A stretch of DNA of 64,000 nt from Pelagibius marinus (GTDB taxonomy: Bacteria; Pseudomonadota; Alphaproteobacteria; Kiloniellales; Kiloniellaceae): assembly GCF_014925385.1 (NCBI RefSeq), contig NZ_JACSDK010000014.1, positions 62,001-126,000 of the forward strand, in the 5' to 3' direction. Within the stretch, counting starts at the first letter, position 1, and each line of letters begins with the position of its first letter. Made by a program: the position numbers and the translations under genes. The notes beneath the pieces were generated by a model. It was not told where the DNA came from and ran no database searches. It worked only from the letters and a program-made list of their open reading frames with translations. Shown here in pieces: positions 6,149 through 30,599 of the stretch.

Positions 6149-6975
6149 GCTCGAAACAGAGCCTCCGTCGCCTCGAGAAGTTTTGGCGCCACGGTGATCT
6201 CCTGAAGGGACCAGAACGGATCGCCGCTGACTGCATGGGCGCGTAACCGCCGCTTTCGATTCCCGAGCTCCTCCAGCAGTTGCCGCGTGGAAAGGGCGAC
6301 CGCCGGATCGTCGCCTGCTCTGACCTCCAGAACGTCAAGCGGCAGTTCCTCAGGGCGCTGCAGCATGCCGGCAAGCTGGCGCTCCGCTATTGCCCGAGCC
6401 AGAGGCGAGGCCAGTTCGTAGCCGGCAATTTCCAAAGCCTCTCCTTGCCACAGGCGCGCCCGCAGTTCCTTGGTGGTCTCTGCTTCGGAGCTTTTGTCCA
6501 TACCGGCCGCCACGCGTAGGCGGAGAAACTGGGTTAGGAAGCGATCACCCGAGAGGATCGGCTGCCACAGCAGCAGGCAGGCCGGCGGCTGGGCCGCTTC
6601 CGACGTGACCTCGGCAGCCAGCAAGGCGCCGAGCCGCAGGCCCCAGAGGCCGACCCGGGCTCCGCTGCGCTCTTTCAGCCAGGCGATCGCAGTCTTTGCG
6701 TCCTCTCGCCAAATCTCCCAGCGGGCATCGCCGAAATCGCCTGCGCTGTCCCCGGTCCCAAAGGGATCAAGAAGGAGCACATCGATCCCGAGCGCCGCCA
6801 GCCGGCCCGCCTGCAGGCTGGCCATGCGACGCGAGCGGTTCATCTCCTCGGCGAAGGGGGGCAGATACACCAAACCCAGTTTGACTCGGCGTCGGGGTCG
6901 AGCGGGATGGTAGATCGCAAAGAGCGTACCTGCGCAACCTTCAAGGAAGAGCGCCTGCATGTCGGTCGTTTGCAT
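6145..6975 (-). CDS. Alpha/beta hydrolase 2, exosortase A system-associated
   Basis: 276-residue alpha/beta-hydrolase of the XrtA-associated hydrolase 2 family. It shows YLPPFAEEMNRSRRM, LLLDPFGTGDSAGDFGDARWE and a GLWGLRLGALLA elbow. In the elbow the nucleophile position is not an obvious Ser/Cys (G-L-R-L-G), so catalysis may be absent or unusual. It is the second of two adjacent hydrolases, 5 bp after the ACP stop and overlapping hydrolase 1 by 4 bp, so the three are one operon. A role as a thioesterase or acyl-transfer partner for the ACP is plausible but unproven. Confidence 0.88.
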   Translation of the reverse strand: MQTTDMQALFLEGCAGTLFAIYHPARPRRRVKLGLVYLPPFAEEMNRSRRMASLQAGRLAALGIDVLLLDPFGTGDSAGDFGDARWEIWREDAKTAIAWLKERSGARVGLWGLRLGALLAAEVTSEAAQPPACLLLWQPILSGDRFLTQFLRLRVAAGMDKSSEAETTKELRARLWQGEALEIAGYELASPLARAIAERQLAGMLQRPEELPLDVLEVRAGDDPAVALSTRQLLEELGNRKRRLRAHAVSGDPFWSLQEITVAPKLLEATEALFRA

Positions 6976-15144: not shown

Positions 15145-17079
15145 TCACGAGCCGGCAGCGCGCTGTCCGTTCTGGTGCGCTGCCGTCTTCATGTTTACAT
15201 TGCCGAGGAACGATTCGAACATGAGCAGTGCCCAGATCGCGGCACTGTGGTCGCTGACTCCGCTGGCGTGTTCGTCCAGGAGGCGCTTCACGAAGCCCAT
15301 GTCGAACAAGTCGACTTCTTGCAGCATGCCATCAAGCAGCCGTTGGCGAATTACCGCCTGTAGCGGCCCACGGAACCAGCGGGTTAAGGGAATGCAGAAG
15401 CCCATTTTCTCGCGATAGAGAACCTCCCGGGGCAGCTGGTCTTCCATGGCTTTTTTCAGCAGGTACTTTCCCTCCCGCGCCCGAAGTCGGAAGGTGGGCG
15501 GCAATGTAGCCGCCCATTCCAGGAGTTCGTGGTCAAGCAGGGGCACGCGCACTTCAAGGGAAGTCGCCATGCTGGCGCGATCGACCTTCGTCAGGATGTC
15601 TCCCGGCAGGTAAGTCTTCAGGTCCGCGTACTGAACATGATCCAGGTGATGCTCAACCGGTGCGTCCCGGAGCACGTCCGCAAGGACGTCACGGGCGTCA
15701 TAACCTTGAAGATCGCGAAGCATGCGCGCGGAGAAAAGCTTGCGGCGGAGACGGCGGTCCAAGATCGATACGCTGTGGAAGTACGCATCAACGCTGTCTC
15801 GGGCCAGCGCCTGCAGGGTCGACTTGGCGCGCAGTGCCCGTGGCGCCCAGTCGAGTTTAGGATACACCTGGCCAAGCAGCGCGAAGAGCGGCTGCCGCAG
15901 GGATCGGGGGAGGCTGCCGCGTACCAGTTCCTCATAATGATGCCAACGGTAACGGCGGTAGCCGGCAAAGGCTTCGTCACCGCCGTCGCCGGAAAGCGCC
16001 ACCGTCACCTTCTCGCGCGCGAGGCGGCAGACCTGATAGGTCGGCATTGACGAACTGTCGGCGAACGGCTCGTCGTAGAACGTCGACATGCGCTCTATCA
16101 GATCGAAAGCGTCGGTGGATACTTTCCGAACACGGTGATCGGTGTTCAGGTGCCGAGCCACTGTTTCGGCATAGTCAGCTTCGTTGAATTCTGGCACATC
16201 GAAGCCGATCGAACATGTGTTCACGCGACCCGCCGAATGGCGCGCCATCATGCTGACGACGCTGCTGGAATCGACACCGCCGGACAAAAACGCGCCAAGC
16301 GGCACGTCCGCCATGAGGCGGATTTTGACGGCCTCGCCCATTCGCTCGCGCAACTCGGCACAGGCATCCGCCTCGCGCAGCTGTGTGTTCGCCTGGAAGA
16401 AGATCTCCCAGTATTGCTTCAACGAAGGTGACGGCGCTCCCCTTTGCCAGACCAGGGTATGAGCCGGCGGCAGCTTGCGCACACTGGAATAGATCGTCTT
16501 CGGGTCCGGAATGTAGCCGAACGCGAAGTAGTCCTCGATAGCCTGGACGTCGAAGCCCCGCGTGAGGGCCGGGTGACAGAGCAGCGCCTTCAACTCCGAG
16601 CCGAAGACTAGCTGCCCGTCCGGCAGGACTGCATAGTACAGAGGCTTTATTCCCAGACGATCCCGGGCAAGGAACAGGGTTTCCGTGTTACTGTCCCAGA
16701 GGGCAAAGGCGAACATGCCGCGGAACCGTTTGACGCAGTCCACGCCCCATTCCTCCCAGGCATGTACAATTACCTCGGTGTCGCACAAGCTGCGGAACCG
16801 ATGGCCGCGGTTGCGCAGCGACTTCGCCAACTCTCTAAAATTGTATATCTCGCCGTTGTAGACGACAGAAACGGTGTCGTCTTCGTTGTGCATGGGCTGT
16901 TGGCCGCCAGCGAGGTCAATGATTGACAGGCGACGGTGGCCGAGCCCGATGCCGTCATGCACGTAGAAACCGCTCCCGTCCGGTCCCCGATGCGCGAGGC
17001 TGTCGGTCATCGTCTGCAGCAGACTCCGGTCGATCGACCGGGTTGCAACGCTATTGAAGAGTCCTACAAGGCCGCACAT
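15145..17079 (-). CDS. XrtA/PEP-CTERM system amidotransferase 1 (asparagine-synthase type)
   Basis: 644 residues starting MCGLVGLF, so the Ntn nucleophile is Cys2. The glutaminase domain is complete (RLSIIDLAGGQQPM, YNGEIYNF, SELKALLCHP). The synthetase domain has FLSGGVDSSSVV, LSGDGGDEAFAGYRRY and LTKVDRASMATSLEVRVPLLD. Known family: exosortase-A-associated amidotransferase 1, thought to amidate sugar carboxylates during exopolysaccharide synthesis. The uronic-acid-making dehydrogenase next door fits. The start is fixed by MCG; the frame remains open upstream to 17133. It contrasts with the glutaminase-dead homologue at 11-13 kb. Confidence 0.93.
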   Translation of the reverse strand: MCGLVGLFNSVATRSIDRSLLQTMTDSLAHRGPDGSGFYVHDGIGLGHRRLSIIDLAGGQQPMHNEDDTVSVVYNGEIYNFRELAKSLRNRGHRFRSLCDTEVIVHAWEEWGVDCVKRFRGMFAFALWDSNTETLFLARDRLGIKPLYYAVLPDGQLVFGSELKALLCHPALTRGFDVQAIEDYFAFGYIPDPKTIYSSVRKLPPAHTLVWQRGAPSPSLKQYWEIFFQANTQLREADACAELRERMGEAVKIRLMADVPLGAFLSGGVDSSSVVSMMARHSAGRVNTCSIGFDVPEFNEADYAETVARHLNTDHRVRKVSTDAFDLIERMSTFYDEPFADSSSMPTYQVCRLAREKVTVALSGDGGDEAFAGYRRYRWHHYEELVRGSLPRSLRQPLFALLGQVYPKLDWAPRALRAKSTLQALARDSVDAYFHSVSILDRRLRRKLFSARMLRDLQGYDARDVLADVLRDAPVEHHLDHVQYADLKTYLPGDILTKVDRASMATSLEVRVPLLDHELLEWAATLPPTFRLRAREGKYLLKKAMEDQLPREVLYREKMGFCIPLTRWFRGPLQAVIRQRLLDGMLQEVDLFDMGFVKRLLDEHASGVSDHSAAIWALLMFESFLGNVNMKTAAHQNGQRAAGS

Positions 17080-17142
17080 TCCCGCTATATCCCAGTGCAA
17101 AGGAACTCGTAAGGAGGGTGAGGCGTGAGACACTCCCGGCTG

Positions 17143-18867
17143 TCATGGCGAAGCGGTTGTCCCGGCGCCTGTTCGCGAGGTCCCGATCTGCATCAGGGAG
17201 CCGTCGCTATTTAGGGCTTGGTTCATAAAATCCCGGATAAGCGCATTTGCCTGTTGTGCATCCTCCGTCACTCTGGAAGCGATGGCAATAACGGCGGCGC
17301 TCTGGTCGCCGCCGGAGACCAACGCCTTGAACTCCAGTAGCTTGCCGAGGAAAGGCGAGTTCGTGTTCTGCCCGCCAATGCGATACCAGTACCATACGAT
17401 ATAGCTTTCATTGCGGCTGGCGAGGAGCATGCGGGTGTGAGGATGCTCCCGTCCGGCAATCCGGGTCACGGCGTTCCTGATCTCCAGCGCGTGCCATTCT
17501 TTGCCGGAGCCGCCAAGCGCATGCACATCACTAACCGCTTCGGCTCCCTCGCGCTGATGGCTGAAATAGGCGACATGGAGATCGACCGTCTTGCCGCCCA
17601 GGGCATAGCTGCCCTTGAGAGCCAGGTCATTGCCGTGGAAGCGAGGCGTCCATCCGGTTTCGTCGCCTGCGGCCGCCAGCCAGGGAGCCGCAACCTGCGG
17701 CAGAAGGAGATCTGGAAGCGGCCCGGCCGGCGGCTCCTTAGCTGCAGCCGTCCAGGCCTGCGCGAGAAGGATGACCACCAACGTCAAACCGCTCCCCAAA
17801 AGCGAAGTCGCGAGGGGGCGGCGCGCCATGTTGTCCCGCTGTCGCTGGCCCGGATCCTGGGCGTCGAGTGTTGCTGGCGCCGTCCGGTCTACGCGGTCGC
17901 GCAAAAGCACAGCGATGCCCAGTAGGCTGAGAGTCACGACACCCAGGAAGAGAAAGCCGTAGAAGACATGGTCGATGTCTACGGCAATCCGATAATCGCT
18001 GAGGTGGGCGAGCATCACGATCCCGTAGGCGCGAAGGCCGTTGGCCACTATCGGCACGGCGAGAGACAACCCAAGAATAGCGATCCGTCGTGCCCACGAT
18101 CTGAAGAGAAGATGGGCTACCAGGGCGCCGAGAGCGACGCTGACCATGAGATAGCGCACGCCGGAGCAGGCCTCGGCAATCACGAAGCTTCCCGAGGGAA
18201 TTTGGATCAAGTAGCCGTCGAGGAACACCGGTATGCCCGAGAGCCGCAGAAGGTGGACGACGATTTGTGCCGTCACATCCTGGAGCGCGGGGATGGCCGA
18301 TGAACCGAAGGGCACCGCGAAATACAGGTAGAAGAGGGGAAAGAGCGCTAGCCGTGTGATCGGCCAACCCAGAACCAGCAGGAACAGGGACTGCCAAAGT
18401 CCCACGAAAGCGAACTGCTTTACGACCATGATATTTGCCAGCGCGCCGAATGCCCATAGCAGCGTGAGGAGGACAATCGGCACGGCAGCCCATGGAGTTG
18501 GCGCCGGCTGCAGCAGCGCCAGGCGATGGCGCTGGCCGAAGAGAAGCAAAAGGCTGATAGGAGCAATGAAAAAAGCGTGACCGAAGGTTGCGGAGCTCGA
18601 CCACACTGCAATTGCGGCGGCGATCTCTTGTCGAAACGCAAAGAACAGTCCTATGGAGGCCGCTCCGAAGATTATGAGGCTGCGGGCCCAGGGAGTCTCA
18701 ATGCCCGCTCGTGGTCCCGCCGGGTGGGACGGCGGTCGACGCAGGGTGGCTTCCCTTCCTTCGGAGCGCCGCTCAGCTTCAGGTCTGGTCTGCCCGCGAG
18801 GACAAGCCTCAGCATCGTCGGCAACTTCCAGCTCGTCTGCGTGTTCCGACTGCGGGACAGACGCCAT
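17143..18867 (-). CDS. xrtA: Exosortase A fused to EpsI domain
   Basis: 574-residue membrane transpeptidase/protease that processes PEP-CTERM proteins at the inner membrane. After a basic 60-residue cytoplasmic N-terminus come about eight transmembrane helices. The catalytic Cys is in EACSGVRYLM (about 234), Arg in ANGLRAYGI (about 279) and His in DIDHVFYGFLF (about 300). A periplasmic EpsI domain (about 355-574) follows. The fused EpsI arrangement is the usual form of XrtA. The start at 18867 shares its A with the upstream FemAB stop (TAATG), so translation is coupled. Its PEP-CTERM substrate in this window is the protein at 0.2-1.2 kb. Confidence 0.95.
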   Translation of the reverse strand: MASVPQSEHADELEVADDAEACPRGQTRPEAERRSEGREATLRRPPSHPAGPRAGIETPWARSLIIFGAASIGLFFAFRQEIAAAIAVWSSSATFGHAFFIAPISLLLLFGQRHRLALLQPAPTPWAAVPIVLLTLLWAFGALANIMVVKQFAFVGLWQSLFLLVLGWPITRLALFPLFYLYFAVPFGSSAIPALQDVTAQIVVHLLRLSGIPVFLDGYLIQIPSGSFVIAEACSGVRYLMVSVALGALVAHLLFRSWARRIAILGLSLAVPIVANGLRAYGIVMLAHLSDYRIAVDIDHVFYGFLFLGVVTLSLLGIAVLLRDRVDRTAPATLDAQDPGQRQRDNMARRPLATSLLGSGLTLVVILLAQAWTAAAKEPPAGPLPDLLLPQVAAPWLAAAGDETGWTPRFHGNDLALKGSYALGGKTVDLHVAYFSHQREGAEAVSDVHALGGSGKEWHALEIRNAVTRIAGREHPHTRMLLASRNESYIVWYWYRIGGQNTNSPFLGKLLEFKALVSGGDQSAAVIAIASRVTEDAQQANALIRDFMNQALNSDGSLMQIGTSRTGAGTTASP

Positions 18868-19913
18868 TACGCCAGTTCCTGCGCAATGTAGGGTCCGATG
18901 GTATTGGCAACGACCAATGGCAGGCGCCGCCATGCAGCGATCATCAGGCCATATCGTGGGTTAAGGGGGGTGATGTCGGGAACATCATTGAGACGAAGCA
19001 GCCGGTGCTCATAGTGCAGGGGACGCGGATCGAACCCCCAATGCTTTTTGAAGGCATAAGAGCCGGTTCCGACCTTGCTGCGGCCGAAGTCGAAAACACC
19101 CAACCTCGCCTCACAGGCGCGGCTCATCACCACCCAATACATGAAATCATTGGCGGCATGGTTCCTCGCTGCCTTGCAGCCGCCGCCATAATACGGCAGC
19201 ACTTCGTCGCGGAAGAAGAAGGAGAGAACGCTGGCGAGCGGCCGCCCTCCCAAAGTTATGGTGACGACCTCGCTGGCGTCTCGGAAGATGGTTTTCAAGC
19301 ATTCGAAATAGCGCCGCCCGAGGACAGGCGTGCCGAGGTTGCGCAGACTCTCGGCATAAAGCGGATAGAACCTGCTCACATCGGTGTCGATCTCGCCAAC
19401 CAAGCCTTCCTTGATGCCCTTACGGACCATGGCACGCTGCTTGCGCGGAATGGCCGCCATCGCCCTCGCGGGGTCTGGCTCGATCGCCTTTCGGAAGGTG
19501 ACATAGGTCGTCCGATTGGTCGGCCAGTCCGGGTGTTGCGGTTCTCGCAGGCGGTACTCGATCCGTTCTGCTCGGAGGTCCTGGGCCAGCGTCAGCGCAG
19601 CGTCGTCCAAGGCCGCCAGGGCGGCGGGTGTCGCGACAAGGGGCCCGCCGTAAACGCCAAAAGCGTTTGAAAGCAGGCTGTTGCCGAACAACCGGCCGCG
19701 CACGTGCGTCAGGGGCAGGATCCCGACGATTTCGCCCGCCTGGCGCGCGACAAGGTAGTGGCACTTATGTCCGAAGCTTTCCTCAATCACCGCTTTCCAG
19801 GCGGAGAGATGAAAGAACGTAGCTTCCGGCCGGCCTTCGACAAAGCGGTCCCACGCGGGATCGGTGCCGTCTAGGCAATTGACCTGGACGCTGTCGGTGA
19901 AGTCGCGGGGCAT
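18867..19913 (-). CDS. FemAB family protein, XrtA/PEP-CTERM system-associated
   Basis: 348-residue two-GNAT-domain (FemAB) protein. Landmarks: FFHLSAWKAVIEESFGHKCHYL, GILPLTHVRGRLFGNSLLSNAFGVYGG, MVRKGIKEGL, NLGTPVLGRRYFE and FDFGRSKVGTGSYAFKKHWGF. FemAB enzymes transfer aminoacyl groups from tRNA to peptidoglycan precursors. XrtA-associated members are thought to modify a polysaccharide or its carrier, which is unproven. It overlaps the deacetylase stop by 43 bp and leads into xrtA by TAATG. Confidence 0.92.
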   Translation of the reverse strand: MPRDFTDSVQVNCLDGTDPAWDRFVEGRPEATFFHLSAWKAVIEESFGHKCHYLVARQAGEIVGILPLTHVRGRLFGNSLLSNAFGVYGGPLVATPAALAALDDAALTLAQDLRAERIEYRLREPQHPDWPTNRTTYVTFRKAIEPDPARAMAAIPRKQRAMVRKGIKEGLVGEIDTDVSRFYPLYAESLRNLGTPVLGRRYFECLKTIFRDASEVVTITLGGRPLASVLSFFFRDEVLPYYGGGCKAARNHAANDFMYWVVMSRACEARLGVFDFGRSKVGTGSYAFKKHWGFDPRPLHYEHRLLRLNDVPDITPLNPRYGLMIAAWRRLPLVVANTIGPYIAQELA

Positions 19914-20779
19914 TCTTCGCCAAGTTCCTTGGATAGAAAGAGCCGGTCGATGCGGTCCCAGGAGAAGTCCCTCAAGACAGCGCGCAGGCGCTCCTCCATC
20001 GCGCCCAGGTGCACGTAGTGGCGAAACCGCGAGCGCAGGGAGAGGCCTGCTATGCGCGGTTGCTCGGGATCGATCTCCCAGGGGTGGAAAAAGAACACCG
20101 TGGGCTGCCCGTCTTGCTCGCCGATGCGGCGCAGGGCCCAGCGGGACACGCCATAGGGAAGGAGCCGGAAATAGCCGCCACCACCACTCGGCAGATTGCG
20201 ATCGAACAGGCGCAGCGTGGAGATCGGGATTTCGATAATGCGATGGCGATCGCTCGGGTGGAATGCGAAGCGCGAGGCGTCGGGCATTCCATAGTGATCG
20301 TGTCTGATGGGATATACGCTGGAGCTGTAGTCGTAGCCCTCTTCGGCCAGGACGTCGAAAGCCCAGAGCGTCCGCTGGTCAATGGAGAAGCTCGCGGCGC
20401 GATAGCCTCTGACCCGCTGACCGCTGATCTGCTCGAGAATTGCCTTGGTGCGGCGGATATCCAGGCGAAAGGCGTCCGGGGCCTGATTGTGGATTTTGAC
20501 ATGCTCGTAGCCATGGCTGGCGAGCTCGTGTCCTGCGCCAACGATCCGTCGGATGAGCAAGGGGTAGCGTTCCGCAATCCAACCAAGCGTAAAGAACGTC
20601 GCGCGCACCCGTCGCTCGGCGAACATCGCCAGGATGCGATCGACGTTGCGTTCCACGCGGCAGGGATAGCTGTCCCAATCCGCGCGCCGGACCTTCTCGG
20701 CAAGTGCCGCCACCTGGAAATAGTCTTCCACGTCCACGGTCATCGCGCCGGTATGGGCAGAGGTGCTGTTTACGCTCAT
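19871..20779 (-). CDS. XrtA system polysaccharide deacetylase
   Basis: 302-residue NodB-type (CE4) deacetylase. The first metal/catalytic motif is MTVDVEDYFQV, where DVED replaces the usual TFDD. Next comes GHELASHGYEH (the H-x3-H metal ligands), then RGYRAASFSID and the C-terminal FFFHPWEIDPEQPR His motif. Known family: the XrtA-cluster deacetylase, assumed to remove N-acetyl groups from the exopolysaccharide. No signal peptide is seen, as usual for the family. The start at 20779 is preceded by GAAGGGAAG; a GTG 15 bases upstream is less likely. Confidence 0.93.
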   Translation of the reverse strand: MSVNSTSAHTGAMTVDVEDYFQVAALAEKVRRADWDSYPCRVERNVDRILAMFAERRVRATFFTLGWIAERYPLLIRRIVGAGHELASHGYEHVKIHNQAPDAFRLDIRRTKAILEQISGQRVRGYRAASFSIDQRTLWAFDVLAEEGYDYSSSVYPIRHDHYGMPDASRFAFHPSDRHRIIEIPISTLRLFDRNLPSGGGGYFRLLPYGVSRWALRRIGEQDGQPTVFFFHPWEIDPEQPRIAGLSLRSRFRHYVHLGAMEERLRAVLRDFSWDRIDRLFLSKELGEECPATSPTASRSIA

Positions 20780-20884
20780 CTTCCCTTCTCCCACGTCTTC
20801 CGCGAGCCCAGGCGGTTCTCACCAGTCGTCAAAGAAATGACCTGTCTCTGCCTGCGGTGCGTTCGCGGGGGGCACCACCCCACG

Positions 20885-21856
20885 CTAGTTATCCTTACCG
20901 TGAGACGCGTGAAAGCCGACGACGCGGTCCGTTCCGGCCGAGGCGGAGTCCCTGCGGTGAGCCTCTTCCAACTGGTCCGCCTCTTCGGGTTCGACTCCCA
21001 GGTCGATCTCGGGGGATGGTTCGCCGTCCAGCGTCAGTCCGCTCGCATCGAGGCGCATGTCGCCGATAACCATTTCCACATCCTCGACCGTGATAGCGTG
21101 CTTTTCCTCAATGAAGGCATGCCACAAGAGGCGGTCGCATAGATTGTTTACAAGTCGAGGGACGCCTCGCGCCTCCTGATGAATGAGCGGGAAGCACTCG
21201 GCAGCAATTGCGGGATCATCTGCCCAACCTGCGGTGGTCAGGCGGAACAGGATGTATTCGCGCGTCTCGGAGTCCTTGAGAGGCGTCAGGTGGTGGATGG
21301 CGACGATGCGCTGGCGCAGTTGCTCCAGGCCGCGTCCGGCCAGATTGCGGCGGAACTCCGGCTGACCGACGAGAAAGACCTGAAGCATGGGCCGGCCCCG
21401 GTGGTAGACGTTCGAGAGCATGCGCAGTTCCTCCAGGGCCGATACCGGCAATCCCTGCGCCTCGTCGATTATCAGAATGGCCCGGACGCCGCGGCGGTGA
21501 GTGTCCCGGAGGAATTCCTCCAGGTGCCGGAACACCGTGGCTTTGTCGGCATTCGCTTGCTGCAGGCCGAACGCAGAAGCGACCATGCGCAGGAAGCTGT
21601 CGGCTTCGAACTGCGTGCTTGTAATGGTTGCCGTCACGACGTCGTTTTGCGGCAGCTGACTGAGGAAGTAGTCGATGAAGACGGTCTTCCCGGCCCCAAT
21701 CTCGCCGGTTATGACAACGAAGCCCTCGCCCTTGCTCAGCCCAAAGCTCAGATACGCCAAGGCACGGCGCTGGGATTGGCTCCGATAATAAAAGCGGAGG
21801 TCCGGCGTGAGGTTGAAGGGGTAATCCCCGAGATTGAAAAATTCAGTGTACTTCAT
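20885..21856 (-). CDS. XrtA-associated ATPase (ExeA/GspA-like)
   Basis: 323-residue AAA ATPase starting MKYTEFFNLGDYPFNLTPD, the family's typical opening. Walker A GEIGAGKT (about residue 51), Walker B AILIIDEAQGLP, sensor-type VGQPEFRRNL and a C-terminal lid RGVPRLVNNLCDRLL. The last 50 residues are acidic and probably disordered. The family is always near XrtA and resembles the secretion ATPase ExeA. It is the first gene of the run leading to deacetylase, FemAB and xrtA. The 156 bp upstream probably holds the promoter. Confidence 0.93.
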   Translation of the reverse strand: MKYTEFFNLGDYPFNLTPDLRFYYRSQSQRRALAYLSFGLSKGEGFVVITGEIGAGKTVFIDYFLSQLPQNDVVTATITSTQFEADSFLRMVASAFGLQQANADKATVFRHLEEFLRDTHRRGVRAILIIDEAQGLPVSALEELRMLSNVYHRGRPMLQVFLVGQPEFRRNLAGRGLEQLRQRIVAIHHLTPLKDSETREYILFRLTTAGWADDPAIAAECFPLIHQEARGVPRLVNNLCDRLLWHAFIEEKHAITVEDVEMVIGDMRLDASGLTLDGEPSPEIDLGVEPEEADQLEEAHRRDSASAGTDRVVGFHASHGKDN

Positions 21857-22012: not shown

Positions 22013-23245
22013 TCAGCTTTCGCTACCGATGCCGATCTGGTCGCTGCGTTGCATGGCTTGCCTGCGATCCGTCTCGTTCTTCGGGGGAGACATCGTCCGG
22101 AGGAGCTGCTCGATCCGTGTCTGTCGGCGCCGGCGGTCTTCCTCCTCCCGTACGTCCGCGGGGCGCAGCAGGCTCTTGCGTGCCAGATGCGGCAGCAGCA
22201 GATGAAGGGGCATGCGGAGATAGTGGGCGCGCACGTAGAGGAGCCAGCGGGCGGCGCCGGTCAATCGATCATTACAGCTCTCATGGTCCGGCAGCAGGGC
22301 GCGATCGAACAGGGCGTCGAAGGTTGTGCGTTTCAATGTCGAAGGCTGCCACTGCAACGTCGCCTCCCCAGCTCGGTCGGGCAGCGGCGCGCCGAGGACG
22401 CGATCGAGGTATCTGCAGCAAAGAAACAGCGGCCCGGTCAGGCCAAGTGCCTCCGCGCGCCCTGTCAGGCGATCCCAGAATGCCGGGCGGCGGCCAAAAT
22501 GGCTCAGCAGGTCGTGAAGATCCAAGAGATCGCGTAGCCCTCGATTGAATTCGCCCTCATTGAAGAGATGAACCGCGGAGTGCAGAACCATGTCTTCCGG
22601 TGCCAGGACATGCAGCTGCCCATCGTCGTCGAGGGGCAGGCTTTCGGACGCCAGGACCGCGGCCGAGACAGGAGCGTGGGCGGTTGGCGGCACGATGGTA
22701 TGGTGGACGTCAAGAACGCTGTGGCGCAGTACATGCTGCAGGGGCGGGATCTGATGGGTCCAGCGTCGGTAGTAGCGCTGATCATAGAGGTCTTTGACCA
22801 TAGGGACCCAATCGGCATGCAGAAGGAGGCGCTCGACTTCTTCCAGTCGTGTCCGGGGTACCATGATGTCGATGTCGGCGAATAGGCGCCCACGCGCGGG
22901 CGGCAGGTCGGCCAGGAGATAGGCGGCGCCCTTCAGCAAGGTGATCGGCACTCCGGATTCCGCCAGCACGGAGCGCAGGCAGGTCACCTCCCAGCGAACA
23001 TCGCGGGCATGTTTTAACGCGAGGGTCCTTGCGGCCTCCAGATGTTCACGCGGCTTTTCGGGTAGCTGCGCCAGGATGCCGAGATCTTCGAGCTGAAAGC
23101 AAAGCCGGGCCAGGACGCCGGCCTCTCGTGCCTGTCGGATCGCAAGATCCCAGAGATCGAGGGGGAGGCTGGTGACTCGCTCCGGTTTCCCCAGCATGTG
23201 TGTCAACAGCGCCCTTGGGGCACGAGAGTTGCGAGGCGGTGTCAC
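22013..23245 (-). CDS. Nucleotidyltransferase family protein of the HPr-rel-A system
   Basis: 410 residues of the uncharacterised nucleotidyltransferase family (PF14907-like). The fold is minimal: VPITLLKGAAYLLAD, then FADIDIMVPRTRLEEVERLL with the metal-binding D-x-D of polymerase-beta-type transferases, then HHTIVPP and a helical C-terminal half (ELLDLHDLLSHFGRR-like). The tail is very basic and polar. It overlaps the HprK-like kinase by ATGA, so the two are co-translated. The reaction is unknown; adding NMP to a protein or small molecule is the family expectation. Confidence 0.85.
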   Translation of the reverse strand: MTPPRNSRAPRALLTHMLGKPERVTSLPLDLWDLAIRQAREAGVLARLCFQLEDLGILAQLPEKPREHLEAARTLALKHARDVRWEVTCLRSVLAESGVPITLLKGAAYLLADLPPARGRLFADIDIMVPRTRLEEVERLLLHADWVPMVKDLYDQRYYRRWTHQIPPLQHVLRHSVLDVHHTIVPPTAHAPVSAAVLASESLPLDDDGQLHVLAPEDMVLHSAVHLFNEGEFNRGLRDLLDLHDLLSHFGRRPAFWDRLTGRAEALGLTGPLFLCCRYLDRVLGAPLPDRAGEATLQWQPSTLKRTTFDALFDRALLPDHESCNDRLTGAARWLLYVRAHYLRMPLHLLLPHLARKSLLRPADVREEEDRRRRQTRIEQLLRTMSPPKNETDRRQAMQRSDQIGIGSES

Positions 23246-24177
23246 GCCGAGGCAGCCTTGAAAGCGGCGCCGCCCGGCGCGAGGGCGTCAAAGGTCCGAC
23301 ACGCCTGGTCCATGCTGCTGTAGCGGAAATCATAACAATCGCAACTGTCCACCAGGTGGGACAGCAGTTCGAAGCCGCGCTTCCCGTGAATGCTGTAGTT
23401 GAAGGCATTGTGACCGACATCGATCAAAGTGCGCGCCTTGGAGCGCGATTGGAGCTGGCCTTCTGCGCCGGGCATGAACCGGGGGAAGATAATCCAGGCC
23501 GGGTGAGCCGTTTCGTCACTGCGGAAGACACTATCCTGCGGCGCTTGAAGCAGAGCGACGGTGCCTTTTGTCGTGTCGGCGCAGGGTGGGCTCATCCGGG
23601 CGCCGGGCAGAAGCCGGCCGATAAGGTCGATGGACTGGTTCTTGAGGCCTAGCGGCCGGGCAAGGGGAGTAACGCGCCCGTCGTCGAGCGACAGCAGCGC
23701 CAGCTCATCCGACAGCAGCCGCCAGCCATTGCCGGTAAGGAAGGCCGTGAGGGTGCTCTTTCCCGAGCCCGGCGGGCCCGGCAGTATGACGGCGCAACCG
23801 TCGCGCTCGATGGCGGCCGCGTGGATGATGAGGAAGTGGTGCGCGTGATTGCTGATGCACCAGTTCAATCCCCACTCGAGCATAGGTAGCGCCTGTGTCA
23901 AGGGCAGGGGCTTGAACAAGGAAACGCCGTCAAACTCGAAGAGGGCCTGCGGGCGGAACCAGCGTCTCGCGCCCGGAGGCTGCGTCAGGGCAAGATGAAA
24001 GTCGGCGAATCCCTCTGCCTCAGAGACCGGATAGTCCGCGTAGAGAAGGGCTATCCCGTCAATAACTGCGGGCAGGCGCGTTCGAATGCGGCTTATGAAG
24101 GGGCCGGTTTTGAGGCTCACGCCAGGCCCTTTAAGCCGCATGATCAGTTCGTCTTTGGGCCAGCAGGAAAGAGTCAC
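23242..24177 (-). CDS. HprK-related kinase A
   Basis: 311-residue relative of the HPr kinase/phosphorylase catalytic domain. The P-loop GPPGSGKSTLTAFL (about residue 138) and LLSDELALL are present, but the HPr-recognition N-terminus of real HprK is not. Family name: HprK-related kinase A of the HPr-rel-A system, found with a nucleotidyltransferase and a PqqD-like protein. A GTG start at 24177 gives the family-like N-terminus (TLSCWPKDELIMRLKGPG) with GGGAA upstream; the frame itself is open to 24300. The phosphate acceptor is unknown, and no PTS HPr is nearby. Confidence 0.88.
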   Translation of the reverse strand: MTLSCWPKDELIMRLKGPGVSLKTGPFISRIRTRLPAVIDGIALLYADYPVSEAEGFADFHLALTQPPGARRWFRPQALFEFDGVSLFKPLPLTQALPMLEWGLNWCISNHAHHFLIIHAAAIERDGCAVILPGPPGSGKSTLTAFLTGNGWRLLSDELALLSLDDGRVTPLARPLGLKNQSIDLIGRLLPGARMSPPCADTTKGTVALLQAPQDSVFRSDETAHPAWIIFPRFMPGAEGQLQSRSKARTLIDVGHNAFNYSIHGKRGFELLSHLVDSCDCYDFRYSSMDQACRTFDALAPGGAAFKAASA

Positions 24178-24296
24178 TGAGCATTCCCGGCCTCGAAAAC
24201 AGCAAGGCCTCTGTTTTAGCGCTCGCGCAGCCGATACTCGTTCAGCGGTACCCCGGATCTTTGCAATGCCGAACAGGTGAACCCCATTCAACGCTG

Positions 24297-24407
24297 TCAC
24301 CCTGCCGAGCCGCCAACGATTTCCAATTGCGCAATATGATCTGCCGCCACGATTTCGGGCGCAAGACGAAGATCCGCCGGCCCGGCGATCACCGGTATCG
24401 ATTTCAT
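24297..24407 (-). CDS. Possible 36-codon small ORF between chaperone and kinase
   Basis: ATG at 24407 opens a 36-residue frame beginning MKSIPVIAGPADLRLAPEIV and ending QLEIVGGSAG before TGA. It sits in the 316-bp gap of the HPr-rel-A cassette, the usual place for a leader-type precursor. Against it: no ribosome site is seen before the ATG, and third-position GC is lower than in the neighbours. A random frame is quite possible. Confidence 0.25.
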   Translation of the reverse strand: MKSIPVIAGPADLRLAPEIVAADHIAQLEIVGGSAG

Positions 24408-24493
24408 AAACTATGGAATTTGGAGATGTTTCGCCAGTGGGCGCCAGGCGCGAGAGACGGTATCAGGCAGCTGTCGTTGTTTCGGTAGTTCGA

Positions 24494-24865
24494 TCAGACA
24501 CTGCGCGGCGGGGTTGCCGTGTTGGGGACCGGCTCAATCAGGCCGCATCGCCGGAATTTCTCCAGAACGAGTTCCGTATAGCAGGCCAGCTGTCGATCTG
24601 AATCAAGATCGAACTGCTTGGCGAGATGATCGGTCAATTCGGCGCGGGTCGCCGGAGCCTCCAGAAGGCGGAGAAAAGCGCCCGACATTACAACATCCAA
24701 CATCATAGTATCGCCGGATAGGTCGTCATAGATGACCACTTCACCATCCCAGCATTGCCAATGCCCGAGGTGATTCCGGTCGATCTGCCAAGCCCGTTCG
24801 TTGCCTGCCTTCTGGGAGAGGCTGGTTGTGTCCAAGTTTTCAATGGGACGCAGTGTTGCGGCCAT
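24494..24865 (-). CDS. PqqD-family peptide chaperone, HPr-rel-A system
   Basis: About 123 residues from the Met at 24865. The PqqD/RRE-like winged-helix core is visible: VVIYDDLSGDTMMLDVVMSGAFLRLLEAPATRAELTDHL, followed by a C-terminal helix LVLEKFRRCGLIEPV. RRE/PqqD domains are known to hold the leader of a peptide substrate for modifying enzymes. The gene starts 5 bp after the Tat-signal protein, on the same strand, which makes that protein the prime candidate partner. The frame is open to 25015, but that part overlaps the upstream gene. Confidence 0.85.
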   Translation of the reverse strand: MAATLRPIENLDTTSLSQKAGNERAWQIDRNHLGHWQCWDGEVVIYDDLSGDTMMLDVVMSGAFLRLLEAPATRAELTDHLAKQFDLDSDRQLACYTELVLEKFRRCGLIEPVPNTATPPRSV

Positions 24866-24870
24866 GTGGA

Positions 24871-25617
24871 TCAACTGCGGCCATTCATCGTCGTGAGCAT
24901 GTCCTGCATATCGTAGGTCGGCCACCCTGCCTGCACGAACGCAACAACTTCGGAGGGAGTCATACCGTATTCCTCTTTGCCGAACTTGACGGCATTCAGA
25001 TAGGCCGCAGAGCATTGCGCGGCCATATCCAAGCCGTTTCCGGCGCCGAGGGACTGCATTATTGTCGTGAATTCGTCGTTAAGGAGCCCTGTGCCGAAGA
25101 TGTCGGAAAACGGTGTGCCGAAAGGCGGACTATTAGGATATTCGTTATTTATCAAATCCTTGTAAGCATTCAGGGCCCGCTTCTCGTCGGGGCTAAGAGT
25201 GCTCGCATTCGATGAAAGATATTGTTGTATCTCCGTCGTGGTGGGAACCGAATAGTCGGAGCAGGTTGCCCCATCGTAATAAAGCGGATTGCACGGGCCG
25301 ACGATAATTCCGCAGTTGGCGACGTCATCCGGATGAGAGAACCACCACTCTGGCGTTAACCCGCTACAGATGGCCAGTGCGGCTCTGGATGGATTGCCCG
25401 ATGTAGTTGCCGAGGGGGAGCAATAGGTCGCGAAGGCGGGGCGAGAGGTGAGAGTCACCACGAATGGCGCCCCAGCCAGGCCACCAGCGAGAATGCGACG
25501 CCTCGCTTCACGGCGCGCCTGTTGTTCCGTCGAGGCCTGAGGTGCGGGCCCGGATGCGGAAGTGCAGGCATGCCCGCGGTCGCCGGTCTCAACGTCAGAG
25601 CGGACTTCGTCAGCCAT
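24871..25617 (-). CDS. Cys-rich secreted protein with Tat-like signal, candidate HPr-rel-A substrate
   Basis: 248 residues. A charged N-region (ARREARRRILAGG) and a hydrophobic segment ending RPAFA give a twin-arginine-type signal, cleaved near residue 63. The predicted mature protein begins TYCSPSATT and has six cysteines, an even number that suits disulfides. Near its start it carries GLTPEWWFSHPDD, which resembles the GLTPGYWKNHP-type motif seen in some extracellular bacterial proteins. No enzyme domain is recognised. It is the first gene of the cassette with the PqqD-like chaperone (5 bp), the HprK-like kinase and the nucleotidyltransferase, so it may be what they modify. The function is unknown. 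Confidence 0.7.
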   Translation of the reverse strand: MADEVRSDVETGDRGHACTSASGPAPQASTEQQARREARRRILAGGLAGAPFVVTLTSRPAFATYCSPSATTSGNPSRAALAICSGLTPEWWFSHPDDVANCGIIVGPCNPLYYDGATCSDYSVPTTTEIQQYLSSNASTLSPDEKRALNAYKDLINNEYPNSPPFGTPFSDIFGTGLLNDEFTTIMQSLGAGNGLDMAAQCSAAYLNAVKFGKEEYGMTPSEVVAFVQAGWPTYDMQDMLTTMNGRS

Positions 25618-27296: not shown

Positions 27297-28199
27297 CTAT
27301 TTCCAGCAGCCAACTTGCACCATAAAAGGGCGGGTGTCCTGCCGGAGCCTTTCCTCCGGCTGAAGCGGTCGCCGCTGGCCGCTGTGGTAGCGGACGTCCT
27401 GCGCATCGAGAAATCTCCGCACTCTGTCGATGGGTAGAACGAAACCGATGTCGCGTACGACCTTTCCGGTGGCGTTGTACGTGGCCACGGTGTCAACCTT
27501 CGCGACAACCACGCCAATCACATTGCCGCCTGTATCCAGCAGCGGCCCGCCGCTGCCTCCCCTTCTGACATCCCCTCTCACGATCATGGCAGGACCGCGA
27601 GGTGTATGGGATTCGCGCCGCAGAACTTCCACGGCGGTGAGAACGGGTATCAGACTCACCATGCCCTGCTCGGGATATCCCGCAATAAATGCGGGCCCCA
27701 CAACAGCTGGTCCGCCGTCCTGGGCAAGGACGGCAATACCGGTAGGCGCTGCTCCAGTGTGCAGCAAGGCAAGGTCGGCCCTGTCGTCGGAAACCATCGA
27801 AGTGACGAGGGCCTTCGCGCCGAACGAGGGCGCTACAGTCACCTCTATGCAGTCTTCGACAAGGTGACGGCTGGTGAGAACGCCACCATCGTCGTCGACG
27901 AAAAAACCGGATCCGCTGCTCGCCAGACGTTTGCCCTTCAGCTTGCTATTCCCAGGGTTCGCCAAGACCTTCTGGATGTAGTCACGCCGCTGATTGCGGG
28001 CGGTTACGGCCTCTTCCTCCGTAGCCACCCGACCTTTGCAGTCGTCGGCCAGCGTGTCCTGGACGATCCCGAGAACCTCATCCAGGCAGTGCACGATAAC
28101 GTGACCGTTCTGCCCTCCGGCGGGCCGGGCAGCGAACAGGGCCAGCAAAATTGCTGCAGCGATCCCAAACTTAGGAACTGTCGCAGACTGCATTGTCAT
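27297..28199 (-). CDS. Secreted trypsin-like serine protease
   Basis: About 300 residues with an N-terminal signal peptide (ILLALFAARPAGGQ). The S1 (DegP-like) triad is visible: His in GVLTSRHLVEDC, Asp in SDDRADLALL and Ser in RRGGSGGPLLD. No PDZ domain follows. A linker of about 45 residues precedes the protease domain and contains NQRRDYIQKVL. The start is uncertain: MTMQSATV at 28199 or Met at 28193; the frame is open to 28250. It is probably periplasmic. The substrate is unknown. Confidence 0.88.
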   Translation of the reverse strand: MTMQSATVPKFGIAAAILLALFAARPAGGQNGHVIVHCLDEVLGIVQDTLADDCKGRVATEEEAVTARNQRRDYIQKVLANPGNSKLKGKRLASSGSGFFVDDDGGVLTSRHLVEDCIEVTVAPSFGAKALVTSMVSDDRADLALLHTGAAPTGIAVLAQDGGPAVVGPAFIAGYPEQGMVSLIPVLTAVEVLRRESHTPRGPAMIVRGDVRRGGSGGPLLDTGGNVIGVVVAKVDTVATYNATGKVVRDIGFVLPIDRVRRFLDAQDVRYHSGQRRPLQPEERLRQDTRPFMVQVGCWK

Positions 28200-28616
28200 T
28201 CTTGGCCTGGGGAACATTATTCCCAAGTCCGGCGAGTTTCCAATTGCCAATCCGCGGCGGCAAGGAAGATGGCGGCTGCCGGTGCCGTTGAGCGAATTCT
28301 ATCAGGTGTTCGGTGCCGCAGGGAAGCAACGGCATGTCAATTCCGCGTCTTCAGACACCCCACAGCCTTGCCGGTTCGGCTTGGTCGCGGAGAGTTGCTG
28401 AGGCGGGAAACAATGGATTTGGCTGATCGGACATTCTACAGTTTCGCAAGACCTTACCTGTCTACGTGAATTCGGCGGTTCATAAGTGATCCGGAAATGA
28501 TCGTAGCGACGGCAGGGGCTGCAGTGATCTTACAAAGTTCGCCCGATCGCCTTTCAGGCAGACCGATTTGGGGGGGAGCATTGTCGGGACCCGCTCTTCA
28601 GCTCACGAGCCAGCCG
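28200..28616. other. Divergent intergenic region
   Basis: About 415 bp between the protease and the export/beta-barrel gene. It probably holds both promoters, but I cannot place them; no sigma-54 motif with the correct GG-N10-GC spacing was found. A frame extends the downstream gene back to 28497 without homology. Confidence 0.35.
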
Positions 28617-30599
28617 ATGCACGGCATCGTTGCGAAGCATTGGCGCGCATTTTCATTGCTGCTCGGGCTGCTCGCCCATCTGTTGATCTGGATGCTCGGC
28701 CCCCTTGCGCAGGCAGCTCCCGCTGAACCGCCAACCTATCTGATCGGTCCGGGTGACGCCTTGGAAATCACCGTCTGGCGGCAACCGGAACTGTCCACGG
28801 CGGTCACCGTGCGTCCGGACGGCCGCATCTCGATCCCCTTGGTCGAGGATCTCCCTGCCGCAGGCAAGACGCCTATGGAATTGGCCGATGCGATAGAGGC
28901 CAGACTGTCGCCATACCTGCAGGATCCCCTGGTCTTGGTGACGGTTGGCTCCGGACTTGGGGACCTCGGCCAGCAGATCCGGATCGTGGGGGACGCCGTG
29001 GAGCCTATGGCGATTGCCTACAGGAGCGGCATCACCCTGCTCGATGCCATCATCGCTGCGGGCGGCCTGTCCCGCCAGGCGGATGGCAACGCTGCCGTGA
29101 TTCTGCGCCGCAGCGAAGATGGTCGCCGGGAGATACCCGTGCGTCTCGCCGATCTGGTGAGGGAAGGGGATTCGACAGCTAATACGCTTCTCAGCCCTGG
29201 CGATGTGATTGTCATTCCAAAAGGGTTCTTCACAGGCGAGTGGCACGTGACCTACGGCGCCAGTGCCAGTCAGACCTTCAGCGACAACATAGATCAGGGG
29301 CCCAGTGGTGATCGCGAAGCCGGCTTCGTCACTCGTGCCGGCCCGAACATCTCCATTAGGGGAGAGACCGCGCGCGTGACGGTGGGGTTGAACGGCAGTC
29401 TGGCCGGTGTCCAGCAGATTGGAGGCGATGATGAGGGGGTTTCTCTCGATCCCCGCATCAACGGCACCTCCAAGACCGAGGTGCTGCAGGACCTGATGTT
29501 CTTCGACCTCAGGGCCGCGATCAGCCGGCAGTTGCTCGATTCCCGGCAGTCCACTTCGACTTCGGGCGCCAGCATTGCAAATCGCGACCTCGTCGCAACT
29601 TTGACTGCGAGCCCTTACGTGGTGCACAGGCTGGGGGACGTTGCCAATGTGGAATGGCGCTACAGCTTCAGCCCGGTCCTGGTGGATGCCGGAAACCGAT
29701 CGGACGTCTTCAGCCACGAGGGCAGCCTGACCGTCGACAGCGGGTCCGCGTTCAGATCCTTCTCATGGACCTGGACGAACCGGGGCGGCGAAGAGGTTCG
29801 CAGCCAAAACGGCGACATCACCACGGCCAGCACCGATTTCGGAGCCCGCTATACACTCTGGCAAGGCTTCTCCCTGCTAGGTGGAATTGGCTACGAGTAT
29901 CGCGACGGTGACGGGAGTAATGATAACAACTTCGACGGCATGACTTGGCGCGTCGGATTTGACTGGTTCCCCCATCCGGATCTCGATCTCCAGGCTACCT
30001 ATGGCCGACGGCAGGACGATGAGAGCATCGATGCATCTTTGTACTATCGCCTCGGCCCCAAGACCACATTGCGTGCCAGCTACGCCGAAGCTCTGCAGAC
30101 ATCGCAGCAGCGGGCGATAGCCAACCTGGGCCGTCTGGTCATCGATCCGATAACTGGCGAACTTGTCGATGAAGCGACGGGGCAGCCCTTTAGAGAGGAC
30201 GAGTTATTTACTTTCGAGGACGCGACGACGCGGACTCGCACTTTCCGGTTGAACGCCGAGCACAGGAGCGGCCGCAACACCTTTCGTCTGAGCGGCCTGG
30301 CAGGCACTAGTGAAGGTGGCTCGGCTGGCGACGAGGAATTCTACCGGGTGAATTTAGCCTGGGGGCGCCCGCTGAGTTCGACCGTCGACCTCACTGCCAG
30401 CGGTGGCTATCAGCGCAGCGACTTTCAAGACGAAGACCGCACGGATGATACCTTCAATGCAAACTTGGGCCTGACCTACCAGCTATCTTCCAATGCGCGG
30501 GCATTCGCGTCATATGGCTTCCAGGTCCGCGACTCATCCGCTAGTGACGAGAGCTTCGTAGAGAATGCCGTGACCGTGGGCGTGACAATCTCATTCTAA
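28617..30599 (+). CDS. Polysaccharide export (Wza-like, SLBB) protein fused to an outer-membrane beta-barrel
   Basis: 660 residues. A signal peptide (LLGLLAHLLIWMLGPLAQA) precedes a Poly_export domain (YLIGPGDALEITVWRQPELS, VTVRPDGRISIPLVEDLPAAG, about 35-120). An SLBB domain follows (IRIVGDAVEPMAIAYRSGITLLDAIIAAGG to GDVIVIPKGFF, about 120-205). From about 215 to the end is a repeated amphipathic beta-strand region ending in Phe (VGVTISF), typical of a barrel of the BBP2_2 type. In most organisms these are two separate XrtA-linked genes. The fused product would join the periplasmic export funnel and the outer-membrane pore in one chain. No Lys/Tyr chain-length kinase is seen next to it. Confidence 0.88.
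   Translation: MHGIVAKHWRAFSLLLGLLAHLLIWMLGPLAQAAPAEPPTYLIGPGDALEITVWRQPELSTAVTVRPDGRISIPLVEDLPAAGKTPMELADAIEARLSPYLQDPLVLVTVGSGLGDLGQQIRIVGDAVEPMAIAYRSGITLLDAIIAAGGLSRQADGNAAVILRRSEDGRREIPVRLADLVREGDSTANTLLSPGDVIVIPKGFFTGEWHVTYGASASQTFSDNIDQGPSGDREAGFVTRAGPNISIRGETARVTVGLNGSLAGVQQIGGDDEGVSLDPRINGTSKTEVLQDLMFFDLRAAISRQLLDSRQSTSTSGASIANRDLVATLTASPYVVHRLGDVANVEWRYSFSPVLVDAGNRSDVFSHEGSLTVDSGSAFRSFSWTWTNRGGEEVRSQNGDITTASTDFGARYTLWQGFSLLGGIGYEYRDGDGSNDNNFDGMTWRVGFDWFPHPDLDLQATYGRRQDDESIDASLYYRLGPKTTLRASYAEALQTSQQRAIANLGRLVIDPITGELVDEATGQPFREDELFTFEDATTRTRTFRLNAEHRSGRNTFRLSGLAGTSEGGSAGDEEFYRVNLAWGRPLSSTVDLTASGGYQRSDFQDEDRTDDTFNANLGLTYQLSSNARAFASYGFQVRDSSASDESFVENAVTVGVTISF

Follow-up and report, generated by a model that had tools for sequence, protein, structure and literature searches.

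HprK-like kinases that act on peptides have been characterised in two settings. For the lasso peptides paeninodin and pseudomycoidin (PadeK, ThcoK, PsmK, PsmN), the kinases PadeK and PsmK phosphorylate a serine, the nucleotidyltransferase homologue PsmN is needed to place a hexose on the phosphoserine of pseudomycoidin, and the lasso kinases use a His-Lys-Asp-Asp catalytic set (PMC9266682). In LPP, a Bacillota family of ribosomally synthesised and post-translationally modified peptides (RiPPs) described in 2026, LppK polyphosphorylates core Ser3 within a cluster of a RiPP recognition element (RRE), an HprK-like kinase and a nucleoside triphosphate (NTP) transferase found in capsule loci, and the precursors have a conserved leader and a variable C terminus (PMC13381572). 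Here, we describe a four-gene cassette in a 64,000-nucleotide stretch of Pelagibius marinus contig NZ_JACSDK010000014.1 (hereafter the window, whose own numbering is used throughout). On its minus strand, at 22013-25617, the cassette runs from a gene for a protein with a twin-arginine translocation (Tat) signal through genes for a PqqD-like protein, an HprK-related kinase and a PF14907 nucleotidyltransferase. The last three belong to HPr-rel-A, a set that NCBIfam has named (TIGR04352 and TIGR04353) and that occurs in many Proteobacteria; for the Tat partner, NCBIfam has no model. We consider it fairly probable that the four genes form one leader-guided modification module, in which the Tat protein is phosphorylated near its N terminus before export, and the cassette is best read, by analogy, as a proteobacterial counterpart of the RRE, HprK-like kinase and NTP-transferase sets. 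A search of the open-access literature returned no paper on HPr-rel-A, no description of the target of the trio, and no paper combining an exosortase with HprK and PqqD.

Linkage of the Tat family to the HPr-rel-A trio

To define the locus set, GTDB species genomes were scanned with a kinase alignment, yielding at least 80 further loci, the best-scoring ones; removal of duplicates and of two loci without the trio left 102 trio loci. The two loci left out (L040 and L041) hold sub-cut-off kinase matches and lack PqqD, nucleotidyltransferase and Tat genes. With gene calls made mechanically and a sample skewed to close kinases and a few genera, a Tat-family gene was found at 99 of the 102 trio loci, nearly always directly upstream, across Alpha-, Beta- and Gammaproteobacteria and Malonomonas. 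Early tallies shifted once better profiles came into use: a first simple Tat regular expression had matched at 52 of 104 loci, and profile searches traced the misses mostly to the expression itself and to over-extended open reading frame (ORF) starts. Among genomes of the order, 15 of 63 carry the kinase above cut-off, and in the loci inspected the PqqD-like gene is immediately preceded by a gene with a Tat signal. One exception (L059) has a divergent Tat protein, 58% identical to that of a Sphingomonas plasmid cassette, and in another (L061) both the Tat and the PqqD-like gene are found away from the trio, on a contig of that genome. At three loci (L117, L128 and L131), the family is instead represented by a tandem pair of Tat genes some 3 kb downstream of the kinase.

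Whole-genome searches gave the same picture: each of the 50 trio genomes searched encodes a Tat-family member, as a rule a single one located next to the trio. In a class sample of 385 genomes, a strong Tat-family match (E < 1e-4) was present in 8 of the 11 kinase-positive genomes versus 2 of the 374 others (Fisher p = 7e-13), and of these two, one (G185) holds a cassette cut by a contig end and the other (G328) an unrelated solute-binding protein. The association between the Tat family and the trio is far from chance. A preliminary description of this DNA had asked whether the Tat family accompanies the trio in other genomes, and had regarded a trio beside unrelated genes as evidence against its model; these counts answer the question in the affirmative, and the gene adjoining the trio elsewhere encodes the same protein family.

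Some genomes also hold extra Tat-family members, with leader and motif, that are unlinked to the trio (L192 and L193 in G413, L190 in G490), and one trio may therefore serve several substrates. In the genome that contains L131, a 1428-aa repeat-rich protein without a leader (L191:1026-5312) includes a stretch of the Tat-family domain that covers profile positions 88-198.

The linkage is more than co-residence in a polysaccharide locus, since plasmids of Vibrio alfacsensis carry the cassette between unrelated genes. On these large plasmids (L229 and L231) the genes form a compact unit amid fatty-acid and phosphonate genes: a Tat gene, an unannotated ORF that takes the place of the PqqD-like gene, a kinase and a nucleotidyltransferase. 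The Tat protein there has the leader RRRFIRSAAISSPILLSIKSPSAWA, followed by CSITSCMSGNAS. A large plasmid of Sphingomonas parapaucimobilis (L230) carries a similar set, with a divergent Tat protein, amid unrelated genes, and both plasmid cassettes lie outside polysaccharide loci. That the Tat protein is functionally unrelated to the trio, the two merely sharing residence in a large conserved exosortase A (XrtA) locus, could draw on the class sample, in which XrtA is present in 10 of 11 trio genomes versus 26 of 374 others. We nevertheless regard this as extremely unlikely: the Tat-PqqD-kinase-nucleotidyltransferase order is unbroken amid XrtA genes that otherwise vary, the cassette is found in places other than XrtA loci as well, and its leader is specific to the family.

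Leader and mature N terminus of the exported protein

The P. marinus Tat protein carries the signal RRRILAGG...SRPAFA. The family has the features of a Tat signal, with an invariant twin arginine, a hydrophobic core and an AxA site, and TatC is encoded in the genome; export itself is a prediction. Beyond these general features, the signal peptide of the family is distinct from ordinary Tat signals of the trio genomes, of which 30 served as the generic comparison. A leader profile built on half of the family gave a median of 38 bits for held-out members versus 1 bit for generic signals, separating the two with an area under the curve of 0.997, and the motif TLxS[RQK][PS] occurs in 50 of 101 family leaders versus none of the 30 generic signals.

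The mature part of the protein diverges strongly across the family. An alignment of 41 members contains only the twin arginines, Ser69, Ser73 and Pro89 as invariant residues. Across 87 long-form members, Ser69 is the sole mature-protein residue present in all (87/87), with Cys66 in 85, Ser73 in 82 and Ser77 in 76, and with P89 and W92 also well conserved. Ser69 lies about six residues past the predicted cleavage site, within a low-confidence and probably flexible N-terminal stretch of the AlphaFold2 (AF2) model, a helical structure predicted with confidence in its core. Identity averages 24-27% over the middle and C-terminal parts of the long forms, versus 51% for the kinase. No match to the family was found among Pfam models, NCBIfam models or in a PDB sequence search, and a fold search with the Tat protein model returned no significant PDB match.

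Two features highlighted by the preliminary description are viewed differently in this light. It had drawn attention to six cysteines, and the P. marinus protein does have six after the predicted cleavage site and one before the twin arginines; counts across the family range from about 1 to 10 and only C66 and C84 are conserved, so the six cysteines were dropped as a family-defining trait. The GLTPEWWxxHPDD sequence it had noted is present at residues 86-98, as the local form of a family motif, [ST]PGYWKNH, and is unlikely to be the modification site.

The candidate serines bear on where a modification would fall. If the Tat protein is the substrate, the modified position could be other than Ser69 or Ser73, namely Ser77, a residue of [ST]PGYWKNH, or residues that depend on the lineage. 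The high conservation of Ser77, P89 and W92 fits this, as do short-form precursors that keep the trio without the two-serine motif, and yet Ser69 alone is universal in the mature long forms and both characterised precedents modify a serine at an end of the core (PMC9266682, PMC13381572), leaving another site rather unlikely.

The trio proteins and a candidate modification pathway

The PqqD-like protein and the kinase both score above the cut-offs of their HPr-rel-A models. For the PqqD-like protein, the predicted fold resembles that of the leader-binding RRE proteins of lasso peptides: its AF2 model (predicted local distance difference test score, pLDDT, 86) has an RRE winged-helix fold, and its best PDB matches are the lasso RRE TbiB1 with leader peptide bound (TMt 0.77-0.83), followed by other RREs and PqqD. 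The catalytic motifs of both enzymes are intact. In the kinase, H160, GxGKST (K181), D198 and E199 are invariant in 103 sequences (numbered from the start at 24300), and this set resembles that of the lasso kinases, with Glu in place of Asp as the fourth residue. In the nucleotidyltransferase, KG (105-106), GR (119-120) and D124-x-D126 are conserved in 97 sequences.

As the kinase is also distantly related to HPr kinase/phosphorylase (TIGR00679, PF07475), with which it shares Walker A and a catalytic Asp region, the trio might instead be a regulatory phosphorelay akin to HPr kinase and HPr that responds to some signal and controls the locus, with the Tat protein as its regulated output and not its substrate. 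The likeness is confined to the P-loop/nucleotide-binding region, the kinase scores 12.2 bits against TIGR00679, far under the cut-off of 240, no HPr-like gene was found among recurrent trio neighbours, and the partner conserved beside the trio is a protein for export. A phosphorelay is thus very unlikely.

Comparison with the two characterised systems supports a functional analogy. Like LPP, the cassette combines a discrete RRE, an HprK-like kinase and an NTP transferase, occurs at polysaccharide loci, and encodes a precursor that is conserved at its N terminus, varies at its C terminus and carries a serine near the leader; in LPP that serine is phosphorylated, and the invariant serine at about +6 is the candidate site here. 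Unlike LPP, the cassette has a Tat signal without YxxP as its leader in place of a YxxP leader, its precursor is usually a protein of 180-280 aa with a predicted helical fold, and the SpI-like peptidase and MsbA-like exporter of LPP were unseen among recurrent trio neighbours. The lasso systems likewise share the HprK-like kinase, nucleotidyltransferase and RRE, but their kinases modify a C-terminal serine, and the cassette has neither a lasso cyclase nor a B2 peptidase. Membership in the lasso peptides was rejected because neither a macrolactam cyclase nor a leader peptidase was seen among recurrent trio neighbours; the asparagine-synthase homologue in the window is the XrtA amidotransferase TIGR03108 and not a lasso cyclase. 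Family membership in either system fails on leader motif, peptidase, exporter and cyclase.

Because the trio almost always travels with a family that shares a special signal peptide and an invariant serine, the Tat-family protein is very probably what the trio enzymes modify, an idea that we did not find in the open-access literature searched. The linkage of the four genes, the predicted RRE fold, the intact catalytic motifs, the distinct leader and the invariant serine are computational results; from them we infer leader binding, phosphorylation and its site, the nucleotidyltransferase chemistry, the order of events and the function. The RRE-fold PqqD-like protein would bind the family-specific Tat signal peptide in the cytoplasm and bring the mature N terminus of the Tat protein to the HprK-related kinase, which would phosphorylate the invariant serine just past the cleavage site, Ser69, with Ser73 as second choice. 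The PF14907 nucleotidyltransferase would then act on the phosphoserine, adding a sugar, a nucleotide or a similar cap, and the modified protein would leave through Tat with removal of its leader, to act beyond the inner membrane, in most cases within the setting of an XrtA/PEP-CTERM exopolysaccharide matrix. The preliminary description had likewise proposed that the chaperone presents the Tat protein to the enzymes before export; that model is strengthened by the linkage to one family, the RRE-like fold, the family-specific leader and the invariant serine.

Several observations weigh against this pathway. Some of the leader conservation may stem from shared ancestry of the precursor family as a whole. 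Sixteen short-form precursors, mainly from Alphaproteobacteria (e.g. L036-L039, L053, L055-L058), retain the leader and a Cys and lack the CxxS..S motif, so that a single fixed site could not serve all systems. The motif bound by lasso and LPP RREs, [YW]xxPx[LVIFA], occurs in only 2 of 101 leaders, and as [Y/W]xxP is nearly absent, recognition of the leader would need another sequence. At one trio locus (L052) the trio is not accompanied by a Tat gene, the LPP study detected no effect of LppN (PMC13381572), and no description of a modification of the Tat family was found in the open-access literature searched.

If the pathway holds, leader-guided serine phosphorylation would reach from small peptides to larger Tat substrates, the Tat signal peptide would additionally serve as a modification leader, and a modified secreted protein would become a candidate component of the PEP-CTERM exopolysaccharide matrix, with its possible roles in biofilms and flocs. 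With the trio tied to one exported family, one leader and one serine, the question of its target can be answered by a single mass-spectrometry experiment.

Cassette layout and XrtA/PEP-CTERM context

The positions of the cassette genes and their features are collected in Table 1. The four ORFs, all on the minus strand, lie in the stretch named by the preliminary description, and the 5-bp spacing that it reported between the Tat and PqqD-like genes (24866-24870) was confirmed. For the kinase, the GTG at 24177 is the probable start in place of 24300, since the conserved part of the kinase family begins there. About 316 bp without an evident gene (24178-24493) lie between the PqqD-like gene and this likely start; in most other loci the two genes touch or overlap.

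Table 1. Features of the cassette and of the adjoining XrtA/PEP-CTERM genes in the window
Feature	Position	Strand	Basis
Tat-signal protein, proposed substrate	24871..25617	-	ORF, 248 aa, trio-linked family
Tat protein residues 1-63, n-region and Tat signal RRRILAGGLAGAPFVVTLTSRPAFA, proposed double role as leader	25429..25617	-	
Tat protein residues 66-75, CSPSATTSGN, conserved mature N-terminal motif	25393..25422	-	long-form alignment
Ser69 codon; Ser73 codon	25411-25413; 25399-25401	-	
Tat protein residues 86-98, GLTPEWWFSHPDD, local form of family motif [ST]PGYWKNH	25324..25362	-	family alignment
PqqD-like/RRE-fold protein, 123 aa	24494..24865	-	TIGR04353, 41.8 bits (cut-off 35)
HprK-related kinase A, ORF from 24300, likely start GTG 24177	23242..24177	-	TIGR04352, 386.5 bits (cut-off 200)
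PF14907 nucleotidyltransferase, 410 aa	22013..23245	-	PF14907, E = 1e-49
XrtA/PEP-CTERM exopolysaccharide genes, context outside the cassette	15145..21856	-	models above cut-off
ATPase TIGR03015, deacetylase TIGR03006, FemAB TIGR03019	within 15145..21856	-	above cut-off
Exosortase A-EpsI fusion TIGR03109/TIGR02914, amidotransferase TIGR03108	within 15145..21856	-	above cut-off

Downstream of the cassette and on the same strand lie genes of the XrtA/PEP-CTERM system, a context that the preliminary description did not use. The cassette shares this genomic context, and its Tat protein lacks a PEP-CTERM anchor. Polysaccharide loci of the XrtA/PEP-CTERM type recurrently carry the trio as an accessory: exosortase A is present in 65 of 68 trio genomes, the trio occurs in only a minority of the XrtA genomes of the class sample, and the genes that recur beside it encode PrsK, PrsR, the XrtA export protein, a chain-length protein, the TIGR03016 outer-membrane protein and an HtrA-like protease. 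This context suggests a possible role of the cassette in the exopolysaccharide matrix. The same adjacency to XrtA export, chain-length and PrsK/PrsR genes would fit a kinase and nucleotidyltransferase that act on an exopolysaccharide or sugar precursor, with the Tat protein as a periplasmic polysaccharide partner. This is quite improbable, as the PqqD-like protein is closest in structure to binders of peptide leaders, the Vibrio and Sphingomonas plasmid cassettes lie outside polysaccharide loci, and HprK relatives with the same gene set modify a peptide serine (PMC9266682, PMC13381572). A covalent protein-polysaccharide link, in which the nucleotidyltransferase attaches a sugar through the serine phosphate and the Tat protein serves as anchor or primer of the XrtA-associated matrix, is a similarly doubtful extension of the phosphorylation pathway.

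In the window, an HtrA/MarP-like serine protease is encoded at 27297-28250 (minus strand), and 25 trio loci have an HtrA-like protease gene some 2.6 kb upstream of the kinase; a link to processing of the Tat protein is possible. At 6353-6434 (plus strand), ARAGORN calls a tRNA-Asn with anticodon att, which was unconfirmed by Rfam and is probably a false call. Finally, the XrtA export protein (TIGR03027) and the outer-membrane protein TIGR03016 are fused in a single ORF at 28497-30599 (plus strand); the two are separate genes in the other scanned loci.

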